Shown here piece after piece: positions 2,563-11,582 of a stretch of 64,000 nt of DNA (its first letter is position 1; each line of letters starts with the position of its first letter). Under the pieces are notes generated by a model. It was not told the origin of the DNA and ran no database searches. It saw only the letters and a program-made list of their open reading frames with translations. Source of the stretch: Bacteroidales bacterium (GTDB taxonomy: Bacteria > Bacteroidota > Bacteroidia > Bacteroidales > UBA932); assembly GCA_017619675.1 (NCBI GenBank), contig JAFZRX010000003.1:62001-126000 (forward strand), given 5' to 3'. The translations under genes were made by a program, and so were the position numbers.

Positions 2563-4269
2563 ATGATAAGGAAAACTGCAATCTGTGCGTTTGCGATAAT
2601 GCTTACAGCAATCTTTACACCAAAGTCCGATGCGTGCACCAATATAATCATCTCCAAGGGCGCCAGCGCCGACGGCTCCTGCATGGTCTCCTATGCGGCC
2701 GATTCCCACTGGCTCTTTGGCGAACTGTATTTCAAGCGCGCCGCGGACTGGGCTCCGGGCTCCATGCTCAACATAGTTGAGTGGGATACCAACAAGCCCC
2801 TTGGAAGCATTCCGCAGGTACGCCATACATTCCAGACCGTGGGCAACATGAACGAGCACCAGCTGGTGATAGGCGAGACCACCTATGGCGGTCGTGAGGA
2901 ACTCGTTGATCCGGCTGGAATAATGGATTACGGTTCCCTTATCTACGTGGCCCTGCAGAGGGCCCGCACCGCGCGTGAGGCCATCGAGACCATCGTGAGC
3001 CTCGCGAACGCCTACGGCTATCCTTCAGAGGGAGAGAGTTTCTCCATTGCCGACGGTACGGAGGCCTGGGTAATGGATCTCATCGGCAAGGGGCCGGAGG
3101 AGAAGGGGATAGTATGGGTAGCGCGCAGGGTGCCTGACGGCTACATCTGCGCCCACGCAAACCAATCCCGCATCACCACCTTCCCCCAGGACGACCCGGA
3201 GAACTGCCTCTACGCCCCTGACGTGATCACCTTCGCCCGCAAGAAGGGCTACTTCAGCGGCAAGGACGAGGAATTCTCGTTCCGCGACGCCTACTGCCCG
3301 CTGGACTTCGGCACGGTGCGCGGCTGCGACGCCCGCGCCTGGGCCGCCTTCAACATCCTGTGCGACGGCGTCTTCACCTATATGGACGCTTCGGGCAGGG
3401 AAGTCTCCCGCCCCGCGTCCGACTGGCTTGACTACGCCATGGGATATGACCTCAAGGGCGAGATGCCCCTCTTTGTGAAGCCTTCCCGCAAGATCACGGT
3501 GAAAGACGTTGCCGATGTGATGCGCGATCACTTCGAGGGCACTCCCATGGACATGACCACGGACATAGGCGCCGGCGGAAATGCCCTGCCGTACCGCTGG
3601 AGGCCAATGGAGTTCGAGACCGGCGGAAAGACCTATGTGAACGAGAGGGCGATAGCCACCCAGCAGACGGGATTCTGGTTCGTTGGCCAGGCCCGCGGAT
3701 ACCTTCCTGACGAGATTGGAGGCATCATCTGGTTTGGCTGCGACGATGCCGCAACTTCCTATGTGACACCAATTTACACCGCATCTTCCGATGTGCCCGA
3801 GTGCTTCCGCGAAGGTAACGGAGATCTCCTGCACTACTCTCCTACCTCCGCATTCTGGATGTGCAACCGCGTGGCCAACGCCTGCTACAAGATGTACAAC
3901 TATATGGCCGCGTACGTGCGCGAGAAGATTGACGCGTTCGAGAACGCGCAGATGTTCGGCGCAGTGCAGCAGAACGACCTTGTGGCCCTGGACTACCTGG
4001 CCAAGGGGGACAAGGCTTCGGCAAACAGGATAGTCACGGAGTACAGTATCTCCACCGCACAGCAGCAGTTCCAGGATTGGGTGAACCTTGAGGAGACCCT
4101 GCTGGTGAAGTTCATAGACGGAAATGTAAAAGCCCAAAACTCCGACGGGAGTTTCAGGCATTCACAATATTCAGAGGGTATACCTGACGGGCTTACTCAG
4201 CCGGGGTATACTGATCATTGGAAATCCGTTGTAGCTCGCGATCACGGAGATATCCTTGAGGTAAGGTAA
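2563..4269 (+). CDS. C69-family dipeptidase (secreted)
   Basis: 568 residues from the ATG at 2563, chosen because it starts a clean signal peptide (MIRKTAICAFAIMLTAIF); an in-frame upstream ATG would add 36 non-signal residues. After the signal comes Cys25 in 'DACTNIIISKGA', the N-terminal nucleophile of peptidase family C69/U34 (dipeptidase A-like, Ntn hydrolases). Other family features are 'TTYGGREEL' and 'SFSIADGTEAWVMDLIGKG'. Expected role: cutting dipeptides in the periplasm or at the outer membrane. Its last 77 bp overlap the 3' end of the convergent S41 protease gene; both frames look genuine. Confidence 0.92.
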   Translation: MIRKTAICAFAIMLTAIFTPKSDACTNIIISKGASADGSCMVSYAADSHWLFGELYFKRAADWAPGSMLNIVEWDTNKPLGSIPQVRHTFQTVGNMNEHQLVIGETTYGGREELVDPAGIMDYGSLIYVALQRARTAREAIETIVSLANAYGYPSEGESFSIADGTEAWVMDLIGKGPEEKGIVWVARRVPDGYICAHANQSRITTFPQDDPENCLYAPDVITFARKKGYFSGKDEEFSFRDAYCPLDFGTVRGCDARAWAAFNILCDGVFTYMDASGREVSRPASDWLDYAMGYDLKGEMPLFVKPSRKITVKDVADVMRDHFEGTPMDMTTDIGAGGNALPYRWRPMEFETGGKTYVNERAIATQQTGFWFVGQARGYLPDEIGGIIWFGCDDAATSYVTPIYTASSDVPECFREGNGDLLHYSPTSAFWMCNRVANACYKMYNYMAAYVREKIDAFENAQMFGAVQQNDLVALDYLAKGDKASANRIVTEYSISTAQQQFQDWVNLEETLLVKFIDGNVKAQNSDGSFRHSQYSEGIPDGLTQPGYTDHWKSVVARDHGDILEVR

Positions 4270-5860
4270 ACTGCCTTACCATTCCCGGTTTCTCACGGCG
4301 CTGGAAGTTGATCTTAACCTCCTGCTCATACCTTGCCGGAGCCTGCTGCTGGGTTGAAGACTGATCCGGAACCTTGAAGTCCGCACGCCTGAGGGCTATC
4401 TTGAGCATGGATTCGTTAGGGTCGCCAAGCTGATATCCGTCCTTGAGGTTGTCCACGGCGCTGTAGTCCGGCTTGATTCCGTTGGGCATACAGAGGGTGA
4501 CGCCGTCCTTGTCCGCATAGCGGGAGAACATCACGTACAGGCCCCAGTTCTTGGCGTACTTAAGTCCGCCCTTGCCGAATTCAATGGCTTCAGCGCTCTG
4601 GGAAGTAGTATTCTCAGTGTAGTAGTCGATTATATCCTGGAAGTAGTCGTCAGAGCCGATGATATAGCCTCCGCAATACTTTCCATGGGACTGTTTTCCT
4701 ATCGTCACTACAGGGAGGAACGGCTTGAGGCAGCAGATGAGGGCTTCTGAAGCGGAAGCGCTGTCATCTGTAATGATGGCATAGACCTTTTCGAGTCCTA
4801 TGTTTGCGTCCTCGGTGTTGAAGTGATAGTCCTTGCCGTCAAAGCGGAAGTCATGCTGGAAAGCCAGCCTTGAAACACCGGCATCCTCGCCGTACCACTT
4901 GACCATCTGGGCGGCATATTCAGAATTGTAGATCTCCTTTTCAAAGATGTCCCCGGCCTCTACGTTGGCCCTTGGGGCAAGCATTGACATCAATACTTCC
5001 TCAGTAACTACCGCACCTCCTCCGTTGTACCTGAGGTCCAGGATCAGTTCCTTGATGCCTGCAGCCTTGAATTCCTTGCAGGCTTCAATGAGGGTGTAGC
5101 AGGATTCGGCGGTGAAGGATGTATAGTGCATATATCCGATCTTTTTCTCTCCATTGTCCAGGACAGTGTAGATAGTGACGGGATCCTCAATCATTTCCCT
5201 GGCGGTCATGGAAACCTTGCGGCCGTCCGAAAGGGTCAAAGTACAGCTGCTGCTGTATACCATTTGATCGTAGATGAAATCAGTATCAAGATATCCTGAA
5301 GTTCCCTGCCATATGATGAGGATGTCCTTGCCGTTTACCTGTTCTATGACGTCTCCACGCTTGAGGCCGGCCTCTGAGGCGGGGCTGTTGGGATAGACAT
5401 AGCGGACTGTGGCAAGCACCCTGTTGGTGTTCTGCTTATCCTGTGCGAAATCGAAGAAGTCATAGCCGTAGGTTGTGGTTACACCGGTTACGCTTCCCAT
5501 AAAGGCGTTGTAGTCGTCCGTAACCTGGGTCCATTTGTCTATGTCGTTGCCGCTGCTGTCTTTGTAGCGGATGGCCTTCACCTTGGCGATAGGTTCTTCG
5601 TCAGTTTTCCAGGCCATCAGCTGGGACTTGATCTCTTTCTTCCAGAGATAGTAGGTGTCCATCAGGTCGTAGGCGAAGTTGTTGACATAGTAGTATGTCC
5701 AGTTTGTCTCCGGCTCCTGAGGGGTTGTGTTGCCGCCCGGCTGCTCCGTATTGTTATTATTATTGTTATTGTTGTTGTTGCCGTTGTTCGGCTCCGGCTG
5801 CTTTTCGCAAGAGGAAAAGACTAACGCAAAAGCGAGTAAGATATAGTAGAATCGTTTCAT
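4193..5860 (-). CDS. S41-family carboxy-terminal processing protease, PDZ-containing lipoprotein
   Basis: 555 residues starting at MKRFYYILLAFALVFSSC, a lipoprotein signal with Cys18. A longer in-frame start 72 bp upstream would bury the signal. Next: an Asn-rich linker with ten consecutive Asn (~26-35) encoded by AAC/AAT triplets, a helical N-domain, a PDZ domain (~145-215, 'SPASEAGLKRGDVIEQVNGKDI'), then the S41 core with 'LILDLRYNGGG' and the serine segment 'DDSASASEALICC' (~368). 'GKQSHGK' carries the lysine of the Ser/Lys dyad. Expected role: an envelope protease cutting exposed C-termini. The 3' end overlaps the dipeptidase gene by 77 bp. Confidence 0.93.
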   Translation of the reverse strand: MKRFYYILLAFALVFSSCEKQPEPNNGNNNNNNNNNNTEQPGGNTTPQEPETNWTYYYVNNFAYDLMDTYYLWKKEIKSQLMAWKTDEEPIAKVKAIRYKDSSGNDIDKWTQVTDDYNAFMGSVTGVTTTYGYDFFDFAQDKQNTNRVLATVRYVYPNSPASEAGLKRGDVIEQVNGKDILIIWQGTSGYLDTDFIYDQMVYSSSCTLTLSDGRKVSMTAREMIEDPVTIYTVLDNGEKKIGYMHYTSFTAESCYTLIEACKEFKAAGIKELILDLRYNGGGAVVTEEVLMSMLAPRANVEAGDIFEKEIYNSEYAAQMVKWYGEDAGVSRLAFQHDFRFDGKDYHFNTEDANIGLEKVYAIITDDSASASEALICCLKPFLPVVTIGKQSHGKYCGGYIIGSDDYFQDIIDYYTENTTSQSAEAIEFGKGGLKYAKNWGLYVMFSRYADKDGVTLCMPNGIKPDYSAVDNLKDGYQLGDPNESMLKIALRRADFKVPDQSSTQQQAPARYEQEVKINFQRREKPGMVRQFTLPQGYLRDRELQRISNDQYTPAE

Positions 5861-5895: not shown

Positions 5896-6714
5896 TTATT
5901 TTAAACCTGTTCTTTGAGCCGTTTTTTGCCATAGGAGGCCGGACAGGGGATTATCCAAAAAGCGTTCCTGCACGTCAAGACAGCGGTGGCCCTTGAAGAT
6001 TTTCATGGTCTGGGGGGATTGCAGGGCGGAAATTGCGGGGGCGGCGCCCTGCTCCGGCCGCTTGCAGAGCGGCTTGAAAAGGGCGTCCGCCAGCGGATCG
6101 AACCAGCGGCCCAGGTCTATCATGTTGGATGCGACCACCCCGGGATCCGACATGTTCACCCGCAGGGAGGTGCGTTTTGCCAGTTCTATGCTGAAGAGCA
6201 TCAGGGCCAGTTTGGAGGCGGCGTATGTGCGCAGCTGATGGAAGTCCTCAGGGCCTTTCTCCAGCAGGTTTTCGTCTATGTGGGCATACTTGGCGGTGAG
6301 GGAGATGACGTTGACGATGCTTGCGTCAGGGGAGAAACTGTCTAGCAGGAGGCGGGTGAGGAGGTAGGGGCCAACGTAGTTCACGGCCACGGTCTGTTCA
6401 AGACCGTCTTCCGTGAGCGAGTAACGCGGTGGCATGGTGCCGGCGTTGTTCAGCAGCCCCGCAGGGGCGCTGGGGGCGACGGCGGCGGCAAAGTCGCGCA
6501 CGGAGCGCAGCGAGCCCAGGTCAAGGGGCAGCACCTGCAGTGCTGCGCCAGGCACCCGGGCGAGCACCTCCCGGCGCACCGCCTCGCCTTTCTCCAGGTT
6601 GCGGCAGGCCATGATTACGCTTCGGCCACCCGCCGCAAGCGCTTCCACGGCCGCCTTTCCCATGCTTCCGCTGGCGCCGGTCACTATTATGCTTCCGGGG
6701 ATTACCTCTTCCAT
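5896..6714 (-). CDS. Short-chain dehydrogenase/reductase (second SDR of the steroid-type operon)
   Basis: 272 residues from the ATG at 6714; the frame stays open further upstream, but that part is antisense-like and overlaps the preceding SDR. Visible: nucleotide-binding TGASGSMG (~12-19), 'NNAG', a catalytic Ser in 'NVISLTAKY', and 'YAASK' (Tyr-x3-Lys). The shape is that of RDH/TIC32-like SDRs acting on hydrophobic alcohols or ketones. It overlaps the upstream SDR by 13 bp, so translation is probably coupled. By context it may be a hydroxysteroid dehydrogenase; the exact substrate is inference. Confidence 0.88.
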   Translation of the reverse strand: MEEVIPGSIIVTGASGSMGKAAVEALAAGGRSVIMACRNLEKGEAVRREVLARVPGAALQVLPLDLGSLRSVRDFAAAVAPSAPAGLLNNAGTMPPRYSLTEDGLEQTVAVNYVGPYLLTRLLLDSFSPDASIVNVISLTAKYAHIDENLLEKGPEDFHQLRTYAASKLALMLFSIELAKRTSLRVNMSDPGVVASNMIDLGRWFDPLADALFKPLCKRPEQGAAPAISALQSPQTMKIFKGHRCLDVQERFLDNPLSGLLWQKTAQRTGLK

Positions 6715-7469
6715 TTTTTCCAGAGTCTGCTTATGAGGCCGTCCGGCAGGATTGAAATCAACGCCGGAAGATAGACGTTCATGAATCCCGGCTTGACCCT
6801 CTTGCGGCCTTTGTCCATGCCGCGCAGGGCCCTGCGGACCAGCCATTTGGGCGTGCGGATCAGGCCCACTTTCACGCCAAGGCTCATCAGGTTCTCCTTC
6901 AGGCGGTAGAGTGGGGTGGCTATTGCGGCGGGCATTACGGTTGTGACGCTCACGCCGTAGGGCTTCATTTCGTAATAGAGTGATTTGCCAAAGCTTTTCA
7001 GGTAGGCTTTGGTGGCTGAATACACCGTGATTCCCGGGGCGGGGATGTCCGCCGCCATGGAGGACATGATTATTATATGGCCGCCACCGGCCTTCTTCAT
7101 TTCTTCTCCAAAGAGGAGGCACATGCGTGTAGGCGTTGCCACGTGCAGCCCTATCATGGCGCTGACGCGGCCGGCATCCTCCGCGGTGAGTTCCTTGAAG
7201 AAGAACATCCCGGCGTTGATGACCACGGTATCGGGCACTTTGCCCTGCTCCTTGCAGAAGGCCAGGAGTTCATCCGCGGCGTCCGCGGCGCTAAGGTCCT
7301 GGAAATGCGGCGTCACACTAACGCCGTAGTCGGCGCGCAGCCGCTCCGCCGCGGCCTGCAGCTCGTCCTGGCGGTTGCTCACTATTACCAGTTCGCAACC
7401 CCTCGCGGCCAGCTGCCTGGCGTATTCCAGCCCCATTCCGGAGCTGCCGCCTGTAACCAAAGCTGTCAT
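6702..7469 (-). CDS. Short-chain dehydrogenase/reductase, hydroxysteroid-dehydrogenase-like
   Basis: 255 residues. It has TGGSSGMG near the N-terminus, 'NAGMFFF', 'IIIMSSMAADIPAPG' and the catalytic 'YSATKAY'. The C-terminal ~60 residues are basic and hydrophobic (ending 'SRLWKKWKR'), as in membrane-associated SDRs of the 17-beta-HSD12/DltE type. Its ATG overlaps the stop of the upstream oxidoreductase in an ATGA, and its 3' end overlaps the next SDR by 13 bp. In the context of a 5-alpha-reductase-like protein and an old-yellow-enzyme reductase, a 3-oxo/3-hydroxysteroid dehydrogenase role is plausible but unproven. Confidence 0.9.
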   Translation of the reverse strand: MTALVTGGSSGMGLEYARQLAARGCELVIVSNRQDELQAAAERLRADYGVSVTPHFQDLSAADAADELLAFCKEQGKVPDTVVINAGMFFFKELTAEDAGRVSAMIGLHVATPTRMCLLFGEEMKKAGGGHIIIMSSMAADIPAPGITVYSATKAYLKSFGKSLYYEMKPYGVSVTTVMPAAIATPLYRLKENLMSLGVKVGLIRTPKWLVRRALRGMDKGRKRVKPGFMNVYLPALISILPDGLISRLWKKWKR

Positions 7470-8698
7470 AGGGTCCGTTCGGCTTTATCTATTTCCCTTT
7501 GAAGCGACGCAGGAAGGTCATCCACCTTGCAGTGGCACTTCATCTCAAGGGTGTACATGCGTCCGATGCAGTAGTTTGAATGCTTGCAGCCGCTGCAGGT
7601 GACCTCTCCGCTCTGCAGCTTGTTCACGAAGTCAGTGTCGTGGATGAGGGCGCGCGCCATCTGCAGGCCTTCGAAGCCCGCGTCCAGCACTTCCTCCATT
7701 ATTTCCTTTGAGATCAAACCTCCCACATAGATCAGCGGCAGCGACAGGTTGGCGCGGAACAGTTTGGCGTCCTCCAGGAAATAGCCTTCCTTGAAAGGAA
7801 CCGTGGGGATTACTATGCGTCCGCCCAGAGCCAGTCCCGCCTTCAGCCACCAGAACTTCCTGAAGTCCATGTAATGCCGAAGCGTCTTCAGAGGCATTGC
7901 TCCGCGCATCACCTCCATGGGGGCCTTGCTCACGAATCCGGCGGTGAGCACCAGCGCGTGCACGCCCAGCCTCTCCAGTTCCTTTGCCACCTCCAGGCAC
8001 TCCTCCGTCTGCATTCCGCGGCGGAAGCCGTCGTGCATGTTCACCTTTACCACTACGCCCATGTCGTCCCCCGCCTGCTTCATCACTTCGTTGATGACCA
8101 GGCGCATGAAGCGCATCCTGTTATCCAGCGAGCCGCCGAATTCATCCTTTCGCCTGTTGGTATATGGCGAAAGGAACTGGCTGATGAGGTAGCCGTGCCC
8201 GGCGTGGATCTCCACGCAGTCGAAGCCGGCCTTGCGCGCCAGGTTCACGGCGTTGCCGAAATCAGCCACTATCTGCATGATCTCGTCCTTGCGCAGCGTG
8301 CGGGCAAAAGTGGGGGAGTACAGGTTGAAGCCTCCGGAGGCGCCCACGGGCATGCATCCGCAGGTGGCACGGTGCGTCATGTTGCCGCAGTGCCCCAGCT
8401 GGATGGATGCCTTTGCGCCGTAGGAGTGGATGGCGTCCGTGAGCTCCTTGAGTTCGGGGACTATCTCCTCCCGCATCCATAGCTGGCCGTCAAAGGACAG
8501 GCCTGACTGGCAGACGGCGGCATAGGCCACGGTGGTCATTCCCACTCCTCCGCGGGCCACGGCCGTGTGGTAGTCGAAAAGGTCCTTGGAAGGACGGTTG
8601 CCGTAGGCCATGTTCTCGAACGCCGCGGAGCGGATTACGCGGTTCTTAAGGGTGACGGGCCCTATGTGGGCCGGGGTGAATATCTTGGATTGGGACAT
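7466..8698 (-). CDS. Old-yellow-enzyme-family NADH:flavin oxidoreductase (enone reductase; possible steroid 5-beta-reductase)
   Basis: 410 residues from the ATG at 8698 (MSQSKIFTPAHIGPVTLKNR), the typical OYE start. It is an FMN-binding TIM barrel with 'HAGHGYLISQFLSPYTNRR' and 'DEFGGSLDNRMRF'. It is the single-barrel form: the FAD/NAD(P) domains of BaiCD or 2,4-dienoyl-CoA reductase are missing. A Cys-rich C-terminal segment (CSGCKHSNYC...CHC, ~378-400) resembles the FeS motif of the longer enzymes. Reductases of this family act on the delta-4 double bond of 3-oxo bile acids. The start codon overlaps the upstream stop (TGATG); the stop overlaps the next start (ATGA). Confidence 0.9.
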   Translation of the reverse strand: MSQSKIFTPAHIGPVTLKNRVIRSAAFENMAYGNRPSKDLFDYHTAVARGGVGMTTVAYAAVCQSGLSFDGQLWMREEIVPELKELTDAIHSYGAKASIQLGHCGNMTHRATCGCMPVGASGGFNLYSPTFARTLRKDEIMQIVADFGNAVNLARKAGFDCVEIHAGHGYLISQFLSPYTNRRKDEFGGSLDNRMRFMRLVINEVMKQAGDDMGVVVKVNMHDGFRRGMQTEECLEVAKELERLGVHALVLTAGFVSKAPMEVMRGAMPLKTLRHYMDFRKFWWLKAGLALGGRIVIPTVPFKEGYFLEDAKLFRANLSLPLIYVGGLISKEIMEEVLDAGFEGLQMARALIHDTDFVNKLQSGEVTCSGCKHSNYCIGRMYTLEMKCHCKVDDLPASLQREIDKAERTL

Positions 8699-9465
8699 CA
8701 GTATATAAGGGGTATGATGCGTTTGACTTTCTTGGCGTCGAACTGCTCCGGGAACTCCTCGGAGAACCTTTTGTGGATCCGGGCGGCGCGGGGCGCCAGG
8801 TTGGCGAAGGTCCACAGGGCGAACACCGCGCCCGCCCAGGACCAGGTGAGTATGGCGAATCCGGTCCATTCCAGCACTTCGCCAAAGTAGTTGGCGGAAC
8901 TTACGTAGCGGAACATCCCCGCGGTTGGCAGGTAATGGGCCGTGTCGCCGGGCTGGCGCAGGTGACGGATTATGGAATCGGACTGTATGTTGATGAACAT
9001 TCCGGCAAAGAACACCAGGGTTCCCGCGAAGAAGGGGAAACTGTGCAGCCACTCCGGAGGGTACATATCGGCAGGGGAGACATAGAATATCCAGCCGCCC
9101 TGCATCAGGGCGTTCAGGGTGTTGAACAGCACACCCATGGCTATGATGGAAAGGGGCATCCGGCTCTCCCCGCGTATGAGCATGGGGAAGATGAAGGAGC
9201 GCTGGAAATAGTGCATCTCAAACAGCAGCAGGAAGGCCAGGCGGGTCACGTCTGATCTGCGGTCGGAGAAGAACCACAGCGCCAGCATTGCAAAGAAAAC
9301 GGGGCATTCCATGAGCACCCAGCCAAGCCGGTTGTTCACGGACGGACCCCATTTACTGTTGTAGAACTTGCCGTAGCCGGCGTCCACGAAGTATAGACAA
9401 ACAAAGACAATCACGGCGCATATGGCCATGATTGTCAGAAATGTATAGAAACTTGCAATGCTCAT
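8698..9465 (-). CDS. Steroid 5-alpha-reductase (SRD5A)-like membrane protein
   Basis: 255 residues from the ATG at 9465; a TTG nine codons upstream is the alternative. It has about six or seven hydrophobic segments. The C-terminal steroid_dh-type block is clear: 'NYFGEVLEWTGFA', 'FANLAPRAARIHKRFSEEFP', and the end 'KKVKRIIPLIY', which matches the family's typical 'RK.LIPF.Y' terminus. It should reduce the delta-4 bond of 3-oxosteroids with NADPH in the inner membrane. As first gene of a four-gene overlapping operon with an OYE reductase and two SDRs, it looks like a bile-acid or sterol conversion unit. Family call firm, substrate inferred. Confidence 0.88.
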   Translation of the reverse strand: MSIASFYTFLTIMAICAVIVFVCLYFVDAGYGKFYNSKWGPSVNNRLGWVLMECPVFFAMLALWFFSDRRSDVTRLAFLLLFEMHYFQRSFIFPMLIRGESRMPLSIIAMGVLFNTLNALMQGGWIFYVSPADMYPPEWLHSFPFFAGTLVFFAGMFINIQSDSIIRHLRQPGDTAHYLPTAGMFRYVSSANYFGEVLEWTGFAILTWSWAGAVFALWTFANLAPRAARIHKRFSEEFPEQFDAKKVKRIIPLIY

Positions 9466-9512
9466 CGGCCCATATCTGCTACTGAATAACAAATATAAGC
9501 AAAGTCCTGCAA

Positions 9513-11564
9513 TTATGCGTTAGTGAGGATTACCTTGCCGTCCCTGGCGTCAGCCGTGATCTTGGAATCCTTGCGGATGCTTCCCTGCAGGATCTCGCTC
9601 GCCAGTTTGTTGACCAGTTCGCGCTGGATGAGACGCTTGACCGGACGTGCTCCGTATTCGGGGCTGTAGCCTTCCTCCACCATATAGTCCTCGAAGTCCT
9701 TGGTGTATGCCAGTTCCACGTTGTCGTCCTGCAATTTCTTCTGCAGGATGTCCATCTGGATGTGCACGATCTCCCTGATGTCGTCCTTGCTCAGCTGGTC
9801 AAAGACCACGATCTCGTCAATCCTGTTCAGGAATTCCGGCCTCATGGCGGCCTTCAACTCCTCTTCCTTGAGGTTGGAGGTCATAATGAGTATGGTATTC
9901 TTGAAGTCCACCGTACGGCCCTTGTTGTCCGTCAGACGTCCGTCGTCCAGGACCTGGAGCAGCACGTTGAACACGTCAGGATGGGCTTTCTCTATCTCGT
10001 CCAGCAGGACTACGGAGTAAGGCTTGCGCCTTACGGCCTCAGTCAGCTGGCCTCCCTCGTCATATCCCACGTATCCCGGAGGCGCTCCCACGAGCCTGCT
10101 CACGGTGTGGCGCTCCTGGTACTCGCTCATGTCTATCCTGGTTATGAGGTTCTCGTCGTTGAACAGGAACTCCGCCAGGGCCTTTGCCAGTTCCGTCTTG
10201 CCCACGCCGGTGGAACCGAGGAACAGGAACGAGCCGATAGGCCTCTTCTCGTTGGAAAGTCCCGCCCTGGAGCGGCGCACGGCGTTGGACACGGCCTCTA
10301 TGGCCTTGTCCTGGCCGACCACCCTCTTGTGCAGGGCGCTCTCCATGCGCAGAAGTTTTTCCTTCTCGCTTTCAAGCATACGGCTTACGGGGATGCCGGT
10401 CCAGCGGGCCACGACCTCGGCTATGTCTTCCGGGGTGACGGCTTCCGTGATGATGGGATCCTTGATCTCCGCCTGCTTGGCGGCGAGTTCCTGGAGGCGC
10501 GCCTGGGCGCCGGCAAGCTTGCCGTAGCGAAGCTCGGCCACCTTGCCGTAGTCCCCCGCGCGCTCCGCGATGGCCGCGTCGCGCTTGTAGTCGTCAATCT
10601 GCTGGCGCAGGTTGTTCATTTCCGTTACCACCGCCTTCTCTTCCGTCCAGCGCTTCATCAGTTCCTCGCGCTTTGCGCTCAGTTCCGTCAGTTCGCTCTC
10701 TATCTTCTCCATCTTCAGGGAGACGCCTTCGCGCTTGATGGCCTCCTTCTCTATCTCCAACTGGCGGATACGGGCGTTGAGGTCGTCGATTGGCTCCGGA
10801 ACGGAGTTCATCTCAAGGCGCAGTTTGGAAGCGGCCTCGTCCACAAGGTCTATTGCCTTGTCCGGCAGGAAACGGTTGTTGATGTACCTGTGGGAGAGGT
10901 TCACCGCAGCGATGAGGGCGTCGTCCTCTATCTTTACGCGGTGATGGTTCTCGTATTTCTCCTTCAGTCCCCTCAGGATGGCGATGGACTCCGCCGGCGA
11001 CGGCTCGTCCACCATCACCTTCTGGAAACGCCTCTCCAGGGCCTTGTCGGTCTCGAAGTATTTCTGGAACTCGTCCAGGGTGGTGGAACCTATGGTGCGC
11101 AGTTCGCCCCTGGCCAGTGCCGGCTTCAGGATGTTGGAAGCGTCCATGGCGCCGGAACTCCTTCCGGCTCCCACCAGGGTGTGGATCTCGTCTATGAACA
11201 GGATTATCTCTCCGTCGCTGTCCACAACTTCCTTTACCACTCCCTTGAGTCTCTCTTCAAATTCTCCCTGATATTTCGCACCCGCGATGAGGGCTCCCAT
11301 GTCAAGGGAGTACACCTTGCGGGACTTCAGGTTCTCCGGGACGTTGCCGTCCACTATCTTCAAGGCTATGCCTTCTGAAATCGCAGTCTTTCCCACACCC
11401 GGTTCGCCCACCAGGATAGGGTTGTTCTTGGTCCTTCGGCTAAGTATCTGGAGGACCCGTCGTATTTCATCGTCACGGCCTATCACAGGGTCAAGCTTAC
11501 CCTTTGCAGCCATATCGTTGAGGTTGATGGCGTATTTGCTTAAAAATTCGTATTTGTTCTCCAT
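9513..11564 (-). CDS. clpB: ClpB-type AAA+ disaggregase lacking the N-terminal domain
   Basis: 683 residues from the ATG at 11564 (a TTG four codons upstream is less likely). It starts at '[26 protein letters not shown]', which corresponds to about residue 155 of standard ~860-residue ClpB, so the whole Clp_N domain is missing. Present: Walker A1 GEPGVGKT (53-60), Walker B '[15 protein letters not shown]', the long coiled-coil middle domain (~260-390) that separates ClpB from ClpA/C, Walker A2 GSTGVGKT, '[11 protein letters not shown]', and the C-terminal D2-small domain. It should thread aggregated proteins together with DnaK. The 97 bp to secG hold a terminator and no N-domain coding. Confidence 0.95.
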
Positions 11565-11582
11565 AATACAATACAATTAAAA

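Follow-up and report, generated by a model that had tools for sequence, protein, structure and literature searches.

Four overlapping genes in a 64,000-nucleotide stretch of DNA from a Bacteroidales bacterium (UBA932; GenBank assembly GCA_017619675.1, contig JAFZRX010000003.1, positions 62,001 to 126,000; hereafter the window) raise the question of whether they form a cassette for conversions of the steroid A ring and, if so, which steroids the cassette would act upon. The genes are transcribed on the minus strand in the order 5-alpha-reductase (5AR)-like membrane protein, old-yellow-enzyme (OYE) flavin reductase and two short-chain dehydrogenases (SDR1 and SDR2). The first junction is a TGATG with 1 bp shared, the second an ATGA with 4 bp shared and the third a 13 bp overlap, an arrangement proposed in an earlier note made from the letters alone and borne out by the coordinates and a check of the junctions. 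Likened to published descriptions, the operon appears by gene content to be a member of a cluster type already known in Bacteroidota, and the probability that it encodes a steroid A-ring cassette is put at roughly 0.6. This reading is supported by the family score of 5AR, its catalytic residues, the co-occurrence of 5AR with OYE, the cluster known from Parabacteroides merdae and the low ratios of nonsynonymous to synonymous substitution rates (dN/dS).

Gene families, linkage and the known cluster

Pfam matches agree with the families that the earlier note had given to all four genes. The 5AR-like protein matches PF02544 (Steroid_dh) with 141.5 bits against a cut-off of 22.6, OYE matches PF00724 with 192.6 bits and the two SDRs match PF00106 with 125.5 and 75.7 bits. 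Placement of the membrane protein in a DUF1295 or fatty-enoyl group, an outcome that the earlier note had named as speaking against it, was looked at and is not what the scores give. The match to DUF1295 is merely 22.0 bits (cut-off 20.4), and the nearest solved chains are PbSRD5A (176 bits) and human SRD5A2 (129 bits) versus 32 bits for an enoyl-CoA reductase; assignment as a DUF1295 or very-long-chain enoyl-CoA reductase was rejected on this comparison of scores. PbSRD5A, a homologue from a bacterium, is described as active in steroid reduction (PMC7815742), and the catalytic glutamate and tyrosine of such enzymes are reported to polarise the C3 ketone of the steroid (PMC7815742, PMC7591894). 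A second protein of the DUF1295 family is encoded in the same genome (G000:C1:59639-59965, L001; 22.6 bits); none of the four query proteins matches it in tblastn at E 1e-8.

Among the best 80 of 299 named relatives, which are those nearest to the window's organism, OYE lies intact beside 5AR in 76; three of the misses are contigs that end inside OYE, and one relative (L062) is without OYE. SDR1 was recovered in 70 of the 80 and SDR2 in 46, and all four genes are intact in 41, some of the misses being contig ends. Since this gene combination is found again in further species, the four-gene coupled unit is confirmed as real, beyond chance. A search of 344 genomes of the order, with thresholds of 1e-10 for 5AR and for PCMD (a neighbouring protein described below) and of 1e-80 for OYE, gave a 5AR homologue in 79 genomes and OYE in 58. 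The 5AR homologue is present in 55 of the 58 OYE-positive genomes versus 24 of the 286 OYE-negative ones (Fisher tests on these co-occurrences ignore shared descent). In the subset of 42 genomes with a close 5AR (E < 1e-78, cut at an identity gap seen after the search), OYE is present in 41 and adjacent to 5AR in 35 of these. 5AR and OYE belong together. Between the window and three relatives with the same flanking genes (L003-L005), dN/dS is 0.04-0.08 for OYE, 0.05-0.11 for 5AR, 0.09-0.13 for SDR1 and 0.11-0.19 for SDR2, with 0.01-0.06 for the adjoining clp ATPase and with dS up to 1.8, near saturation. Among these genomes, purifying selection acts on each gene of the operon.

In Bacteroidota, a 5AR clustered with a predicted 3-beta-hydroxysteroid dehydrogenase (3-beta-HSDH) and an NADH:flavin oxidoreductase has been described, and disruption of the P. 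merdae 5AR is reported to prevent formation of allolithocholic acid (alloLCA) derivatives (PMC10382948). Converters besides P. merdae are given as O. laneus and B. dorei (PMC10382948, PMC11271093), and reviews report iso-allo bile acids as the products of such clusters (including PMC10382948, PMC12697870). The window operon shares with the P. merdae-type cluster the SRD5A-type 5AR, the NADH:flavin oxidoreductase, an SDR and the phylum, and the likeness to Bacteroidota clusters of 5AR, 5-beta-reductase and 3-beta-HSDH seen in the earlier note thus holds in gene content. The operon differs in that a second SDR is coupled to the unit, in that many of its relatives come from the ruminant foregut, and in the PCMD protein, which is linked to the unit in 34 of the 80 relatives and was not found in the window's genome. 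The presence of both stereochemical reductases in one unit, which the earlier note considered notable, had already been reported for this kind of cluster (PMC10382948) and is not new. The earlier reading is therefore partly supported: it is right in kind, and the kind itself is known. What is new here are the foregut relatives with the genes under selection, an OYE without the signatures of both characterised clades, the M-E-Y motif of 5AR, and the linkage to PCMD.

For this operon we infer the reactions, their stereochemistry and the order of steps as follows. OYE would interconvert 3-oxo-5-beta and 3-oxo-delta4 steroids, the flat 3-oxo-5-alpha form would arise from 3-oxo-delta4 by an irreversible, NADPH-dependent reduction through 5AR, and one or both SDRs would interconvert 3-oxo and 3-hydroxy groups. 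The net result would be the conversion of bent 5-beta steroids or delta4-3-ketones to 5-alpha (allo) 3-hydroxy products, with reducing power consumed. Candidate substrates in the rumen would be steroid hormones, plant sterol ketones and bile acids that are recycled or present in traces.

Residues of the reductases and dehydrogenases

After removal of 11 duplicates each from 130 and 118 collected sequences, the alignments contained 119 rows for 5AR and 107 for OYE. The catalytic glutamate and tyrosine of 5AR (E53 and Y86) are present in 119 of 119 rows; the pairing with human residue numbers comes from alignment to the solved chains. The window 5AR resembles PbSRD5A and human SRD5A1/2 in family, length and these two residues, and the equivalents of human SRD5A2 N160, D164, R171, N193, E197 and R227 are also present. 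OYE has the active site H165-A-G-H168-G-Y170, as in YqjM, which is its best PDB profile match, and its best single-sequence match is the 2,4-dienoyl-CoA reductase 1ps9. Its C-terminal tail has the arrangement C371-x-H373-x3-C377-x10-C388, with the three cysteines in 107 of 107 rows and the histidine in 106, and may form a metal site. A classical four-cysteine [4Fe-4S] motif was considered and rejected for this tail, which instead conserves three cysteines and a histidine; a further cysteine within five residues before C371 is found in merely 44 of the 107 rows. The catalytic Ser-Tyr-Lys is present in 80 of 80 rows of SDR1 and 55 of 55 rows of SDR2. Position 109 of SDR1, which we take to be the expected place of the asparagine of the SDR catalytic tetrad, has an invariant histidine (80/80 rows). 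The closest models of SDR2 are PRK06197 and protochlorophyllide-reductase-like SDRs. One or both proteins may be 3-oxo reductases, of 3-alpha or 3-beta outcome.

Several features of the proteins and of the literature weigh against the steroid cassette. The glutamine of the Q-E-Y motif of 5AR is methionine (M52) in 119 of 119 rows, and substitutions Q56A/L are reported to have abolished the activity of human SRD5A2. The M-E pair was part of one of the six patterns used to search for relatives; it is also present in the 38 of the 119 rows that genome searches supplied independently of that pattern. The position of H231, a ligand of NADPH, is isoleucine in the window and isoleucine, leucine or valine in 116 of 119 rows, with histidine in three, while the position of Y235 is tyrosine in 118 of 119 rows and phenylalanine in the window alone. 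With these three differences from human SRD5A2, the protein appears to belong to a diverged branch, marked by M-E-Y, of the steroid 5-alpha-reductase family at large, with putative activity; because the glutamine is absent, it is described as such and not filed as SRD5A1/2. In OYE, the places corresponding to residues 166 and 171 have G169 (106 of 107 rows, with serine in one) and Q174 (107 of 107). The marks of the ci2350 clade are N166 and S171, those of BaiCD tyrosine or serine at 166 together with Glu171 (PMC12238238, Arp et al.). A review table assigns 5-beta-reductase to Hungatella hathewayi and Lachnospiraceae only, with no Bacteroidota entry in that table (PMC12692668), and a role of the Bacteroidota flavin oxidoreductase as 5-beta-reductase is put forward as a hypothesis in PMC10382948. 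For SDR1 and SDR2, no hydroxysteroid dehydrogenase model is among the best 25 of 213 and 115 matches.

Membership of OYE in BaiCD or ci2350 was considered and rejected, since the clade residues differ and the score to the NCBIfam BaiCD model is 196 bits where the cut-off is 825; with its 410 aa, OYE has no counterpart to the long second half of this 642-position model. It resembles these Firmicutes enzymes (PMC12238238) in belonging to the old-yellow-enzyme family, in the proposed reduction of 3-oxo-delta4 steroids and in a tyrosine at the 1PS9 Y166 position, and differs from them in G169 and Q174, in the two histidines as in YqjM and in its length. If it is a 5-beta-reductase, it would be of a third kind, and its 5-beta activity is putative. 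The claim of the earlier note that the operon encodes both 5-alpha and 5-beta reduction accordingly stands in part: the family of 5AR is in agreement with it, and the 5-beta half was overstated, given an OYE without the residues of either clade and a review table without Bacteroidota.

Neighbouring genes and history of the locus

The features of the locus are collected in Table 1. The genome carrying the window is 2.04 Mb and 94.5% complete. The clp ATPase and the S41 peptidase flank the operon in the same order in L003-L005. Read-through from SDR2 into the S41 peptidase is possible, and the peptidase is probably outside the pathway. The clp ATPase has 687 aa in the listed frame and 682 aa in L003, which we take to be short for ClpB. 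The box TATATTTG fits TAnnTTTG, presumably the Bacteroides -7 box consensus, and is a possible promoter of the operon; taken alone it is weak evidence, because the window has 34 matches to this box versus 19.3 expected in shuffles. A scan of the locus for promoters and terminators gave nothing firm.

Table 1. Features of the operon and its surroundings, in window positions unless the locus of a relative is named
Feature	Position	Strand	Remarks
5AR-like SRD5A-type membrane reductase	8698..9465	minus	first gene; 255 aa; E53 and Y86 equivalent to human E57 and Y91; M52 at Q56
OYE-family flavin reductase	7466..8698	minus	410 aa from ATG 8698; candidate 5-beta-reductase / delta4-dehydrogenase
SDR1, short-chain dehydrogenase	6702..7469	minus	255 aa; S137, Y150, K154; His at 109
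SDR2, short-chain dehydrogenase	5896..6714	minus	272 aa; S138, Y164, K168; nearest PRK06197
S41 peptidase	4193..5860	minus	co-directional; ATG 5860, 35 bp after SDR2
clp ATPase	9513-11576	co-directional	upstream of 5AR, 47-bp gap
TATATTTG, candidate -7 box	9490..9497	minus	in the 47-bp gap between clp ATPase and 5AR; fits TAnnTTTG
PCMD-domain protein	L043:8804-9748; L007:8751-9704; L078:4755-5687; others		linked to the 5AR-OYE unit

A tree built from 47 of the 130 5AR rows places the window copy with those of L003-L005 (100/99), all at the site between clp ATPase and S41 peptidase. The copies of a genome labelled as the same genus (G008) and of one labelled as the same family (G126) pair elsewhere in the tree (100/99), each close to a gene judged by eye to encode CTP synthase. 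Because the window copy groups with L003-L005 while these two group elsewhere, the tree points to lateral transfer or, alternatively, to paralogues having been lost.

The PCMD protein (PF13201) lies in or beside the unit in the 34 relatives mentioned above, a count that covers proteins like that of L043 only; a more distant PCMD protein adjoins SDR2 in L056. Its position varies: it may follow SDR1 or SDR2, precede 5AR or, as in Barnesiella (L078), be divergently oriented. It is present in 30 of the 42 close-5AR genomes versus 20 of the 302 others. The N-terminus is signal-like as judged by eye, from which the PCMD proteins would be exported, and a profile search gave only weak matches to solved structures, which are annotated as putative or hypothetical glycoside hydrolases. 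A family search of the window's genome gave no PCMD match, and the same search matched no control genome, so that it proves little; a protein search with E up to 10 gave one 31-residue match (12.3 bits, E 0.099). PCMD as an obligate part of the unit was rejected, with no convincing copy in the window's genome and with copies also in the 20 genomes without a close 5AR. In L027 an MGH1-like glycoside hydrolase (7943-9397) lies between OYE and SDR1, and gaps of the same size are found there in L029 and L074.

Substrates in the ruminant foregut

The titles of 30 of the 80 relatives, classed by hand, name rumen, omasum, reticulum or abomasum, and a further 19 have RUG names, which we take to denote rumen genomes; because these relatives are the nearest ones, the sample is biased towards the environment from which the window's organism comes. 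The remaining titles include four from horse faeces, one with 'equi', two from ruminant intestine and 24 without a clear site. The ruminant foregut sits above the bile duct, and bile acids as the natural substrate of foregut bacteria are therefore doubtful. A cassette devoted to bile acids, like that of Bacteroidota in the human gut and leading from 3-oxo-5-beta through 3-oxo-delta4 and 3-oxo-allo to iso-allo acids, is a tentative possibility, favoured by the cluster of this type in P. merdae. Rumen communities that received bile acids made allocholic acid (alloCA), 3-beta-cholic acid (3-beta-CA) and isolithocholic acid (isoLCA), although the bile acids of that experiment were supplied from outside (PMC11193847, 2024). 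The accompanying survey of KEGG orthologues (KOs) in 3954 rumen metagenome-assembled genomes (MAGs) found 8 of 82 listed bile-acid KOs, including bile salt hydrolase in 431 MAGs; the accessible text names no 5-alpha-reductase or other fitting enzyme and contains '5AR' 0 times, and for the 3-beta step its authors suggest a sugar-phosphate epimerase (PMC11193847). A survey of the dairy-cow intestine reports MAGs without 3-beta-HSDH (PMC9750977). The window's genome encodes a hydrolase of the AAT/CBAH superfamily (G000:C5:147339-147818; L133:1204-2340), which is above both Pfam cut-offs but scores higher as AAT (51.7 bits) than as CBAH (41.7 bits); it is no clear bile salt hydrolase and may have some such activity. 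In our literature search, which is not proof that none exists, no paper was found that names this operon in rumen bacteria.

Alternatively, the cassette may act on plant sterols, with an SDR making the delta4-3-ketone of sitosterol, 5AR and OYE giving 5-alpha- and 5-beta-stanones, and an SDR giving stanols. The relatives come mostly from plant-eating animals, and both stereochemistries and two SDRs would fit. In herbivore faeces 5-beta-stigmastanol is dominant, followed by 5-alpha-stigmastanol or sitosterol, with the exceptions of the horse (epi-5-beta-stigmastanol) and the goose (sitosterol first), and 5-beta-stanols are attributed mainly to gut microbes with stanones as intermediates (PMC5217961). 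However, the delta5-3-beta-HSD/isomerase activity is putative here, and no sterol uptake system was recognised by eye among the unannotated recurrent neighbours, at which no search was aimed. This use is unlikely on balance. A more specific form, in which the rumen operon serves plant sterols and not bile acids, the 5AR-OYE-SDR unit yields both ring-A stanol isomers and PCMD handles sterol glycosides outside the cell, is more unlikely still. General detoxification of enones, or an electron sink, without steroid specificity would suit the H-x2-H-G-Y active site of OYE and its matches to 2,4-dienoyl-CoA reductase and to YqjM, a broad enone reductase, but OYE is tightly coupled to an SRD5A-type enzyme and two SDRs, which makes this improbable. 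In eukaryotes, SRD5A3 with a DHRSX-like SDR carries out the alpha-saturation of polyprenol. Saturation of an endogenous lipid of this type would be in keeping with the reported action of human SRD5A3 on polyprenol, with the PRK06197-type neighbours of SDR2 and with the persistence of the genes in a 2.0 Mb genome. The patchy spread of 5AR among the 344 genomes and the signs of lateral movement are unlike a core lipid step, and the known Bacteroidota 5AR acts on bile acids (PMC10382948); such a role seems quite improbable.

Of the points added here, the foregut setting and the question of substrate that it raises are the most useful. The operon would be a gene-level candidate for steroid conversions in ruminants, whether to allo and 3-beta bile acids or to stanols. 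Should the plant-sterol form be true, the operon would supply the genes so far lacking for two observations, the 5-beta- and 5-alpha-stigmastanol markers and the as yet unexplained 5-alpha- and 3-beta-epimerisation of bile acids in rumen fluid. A cassette apparently kept under selection above the bile duct bears on the origin of the iso-allo bile acid pathway of the human gut, and bile acids may therefore not be its original substrate.

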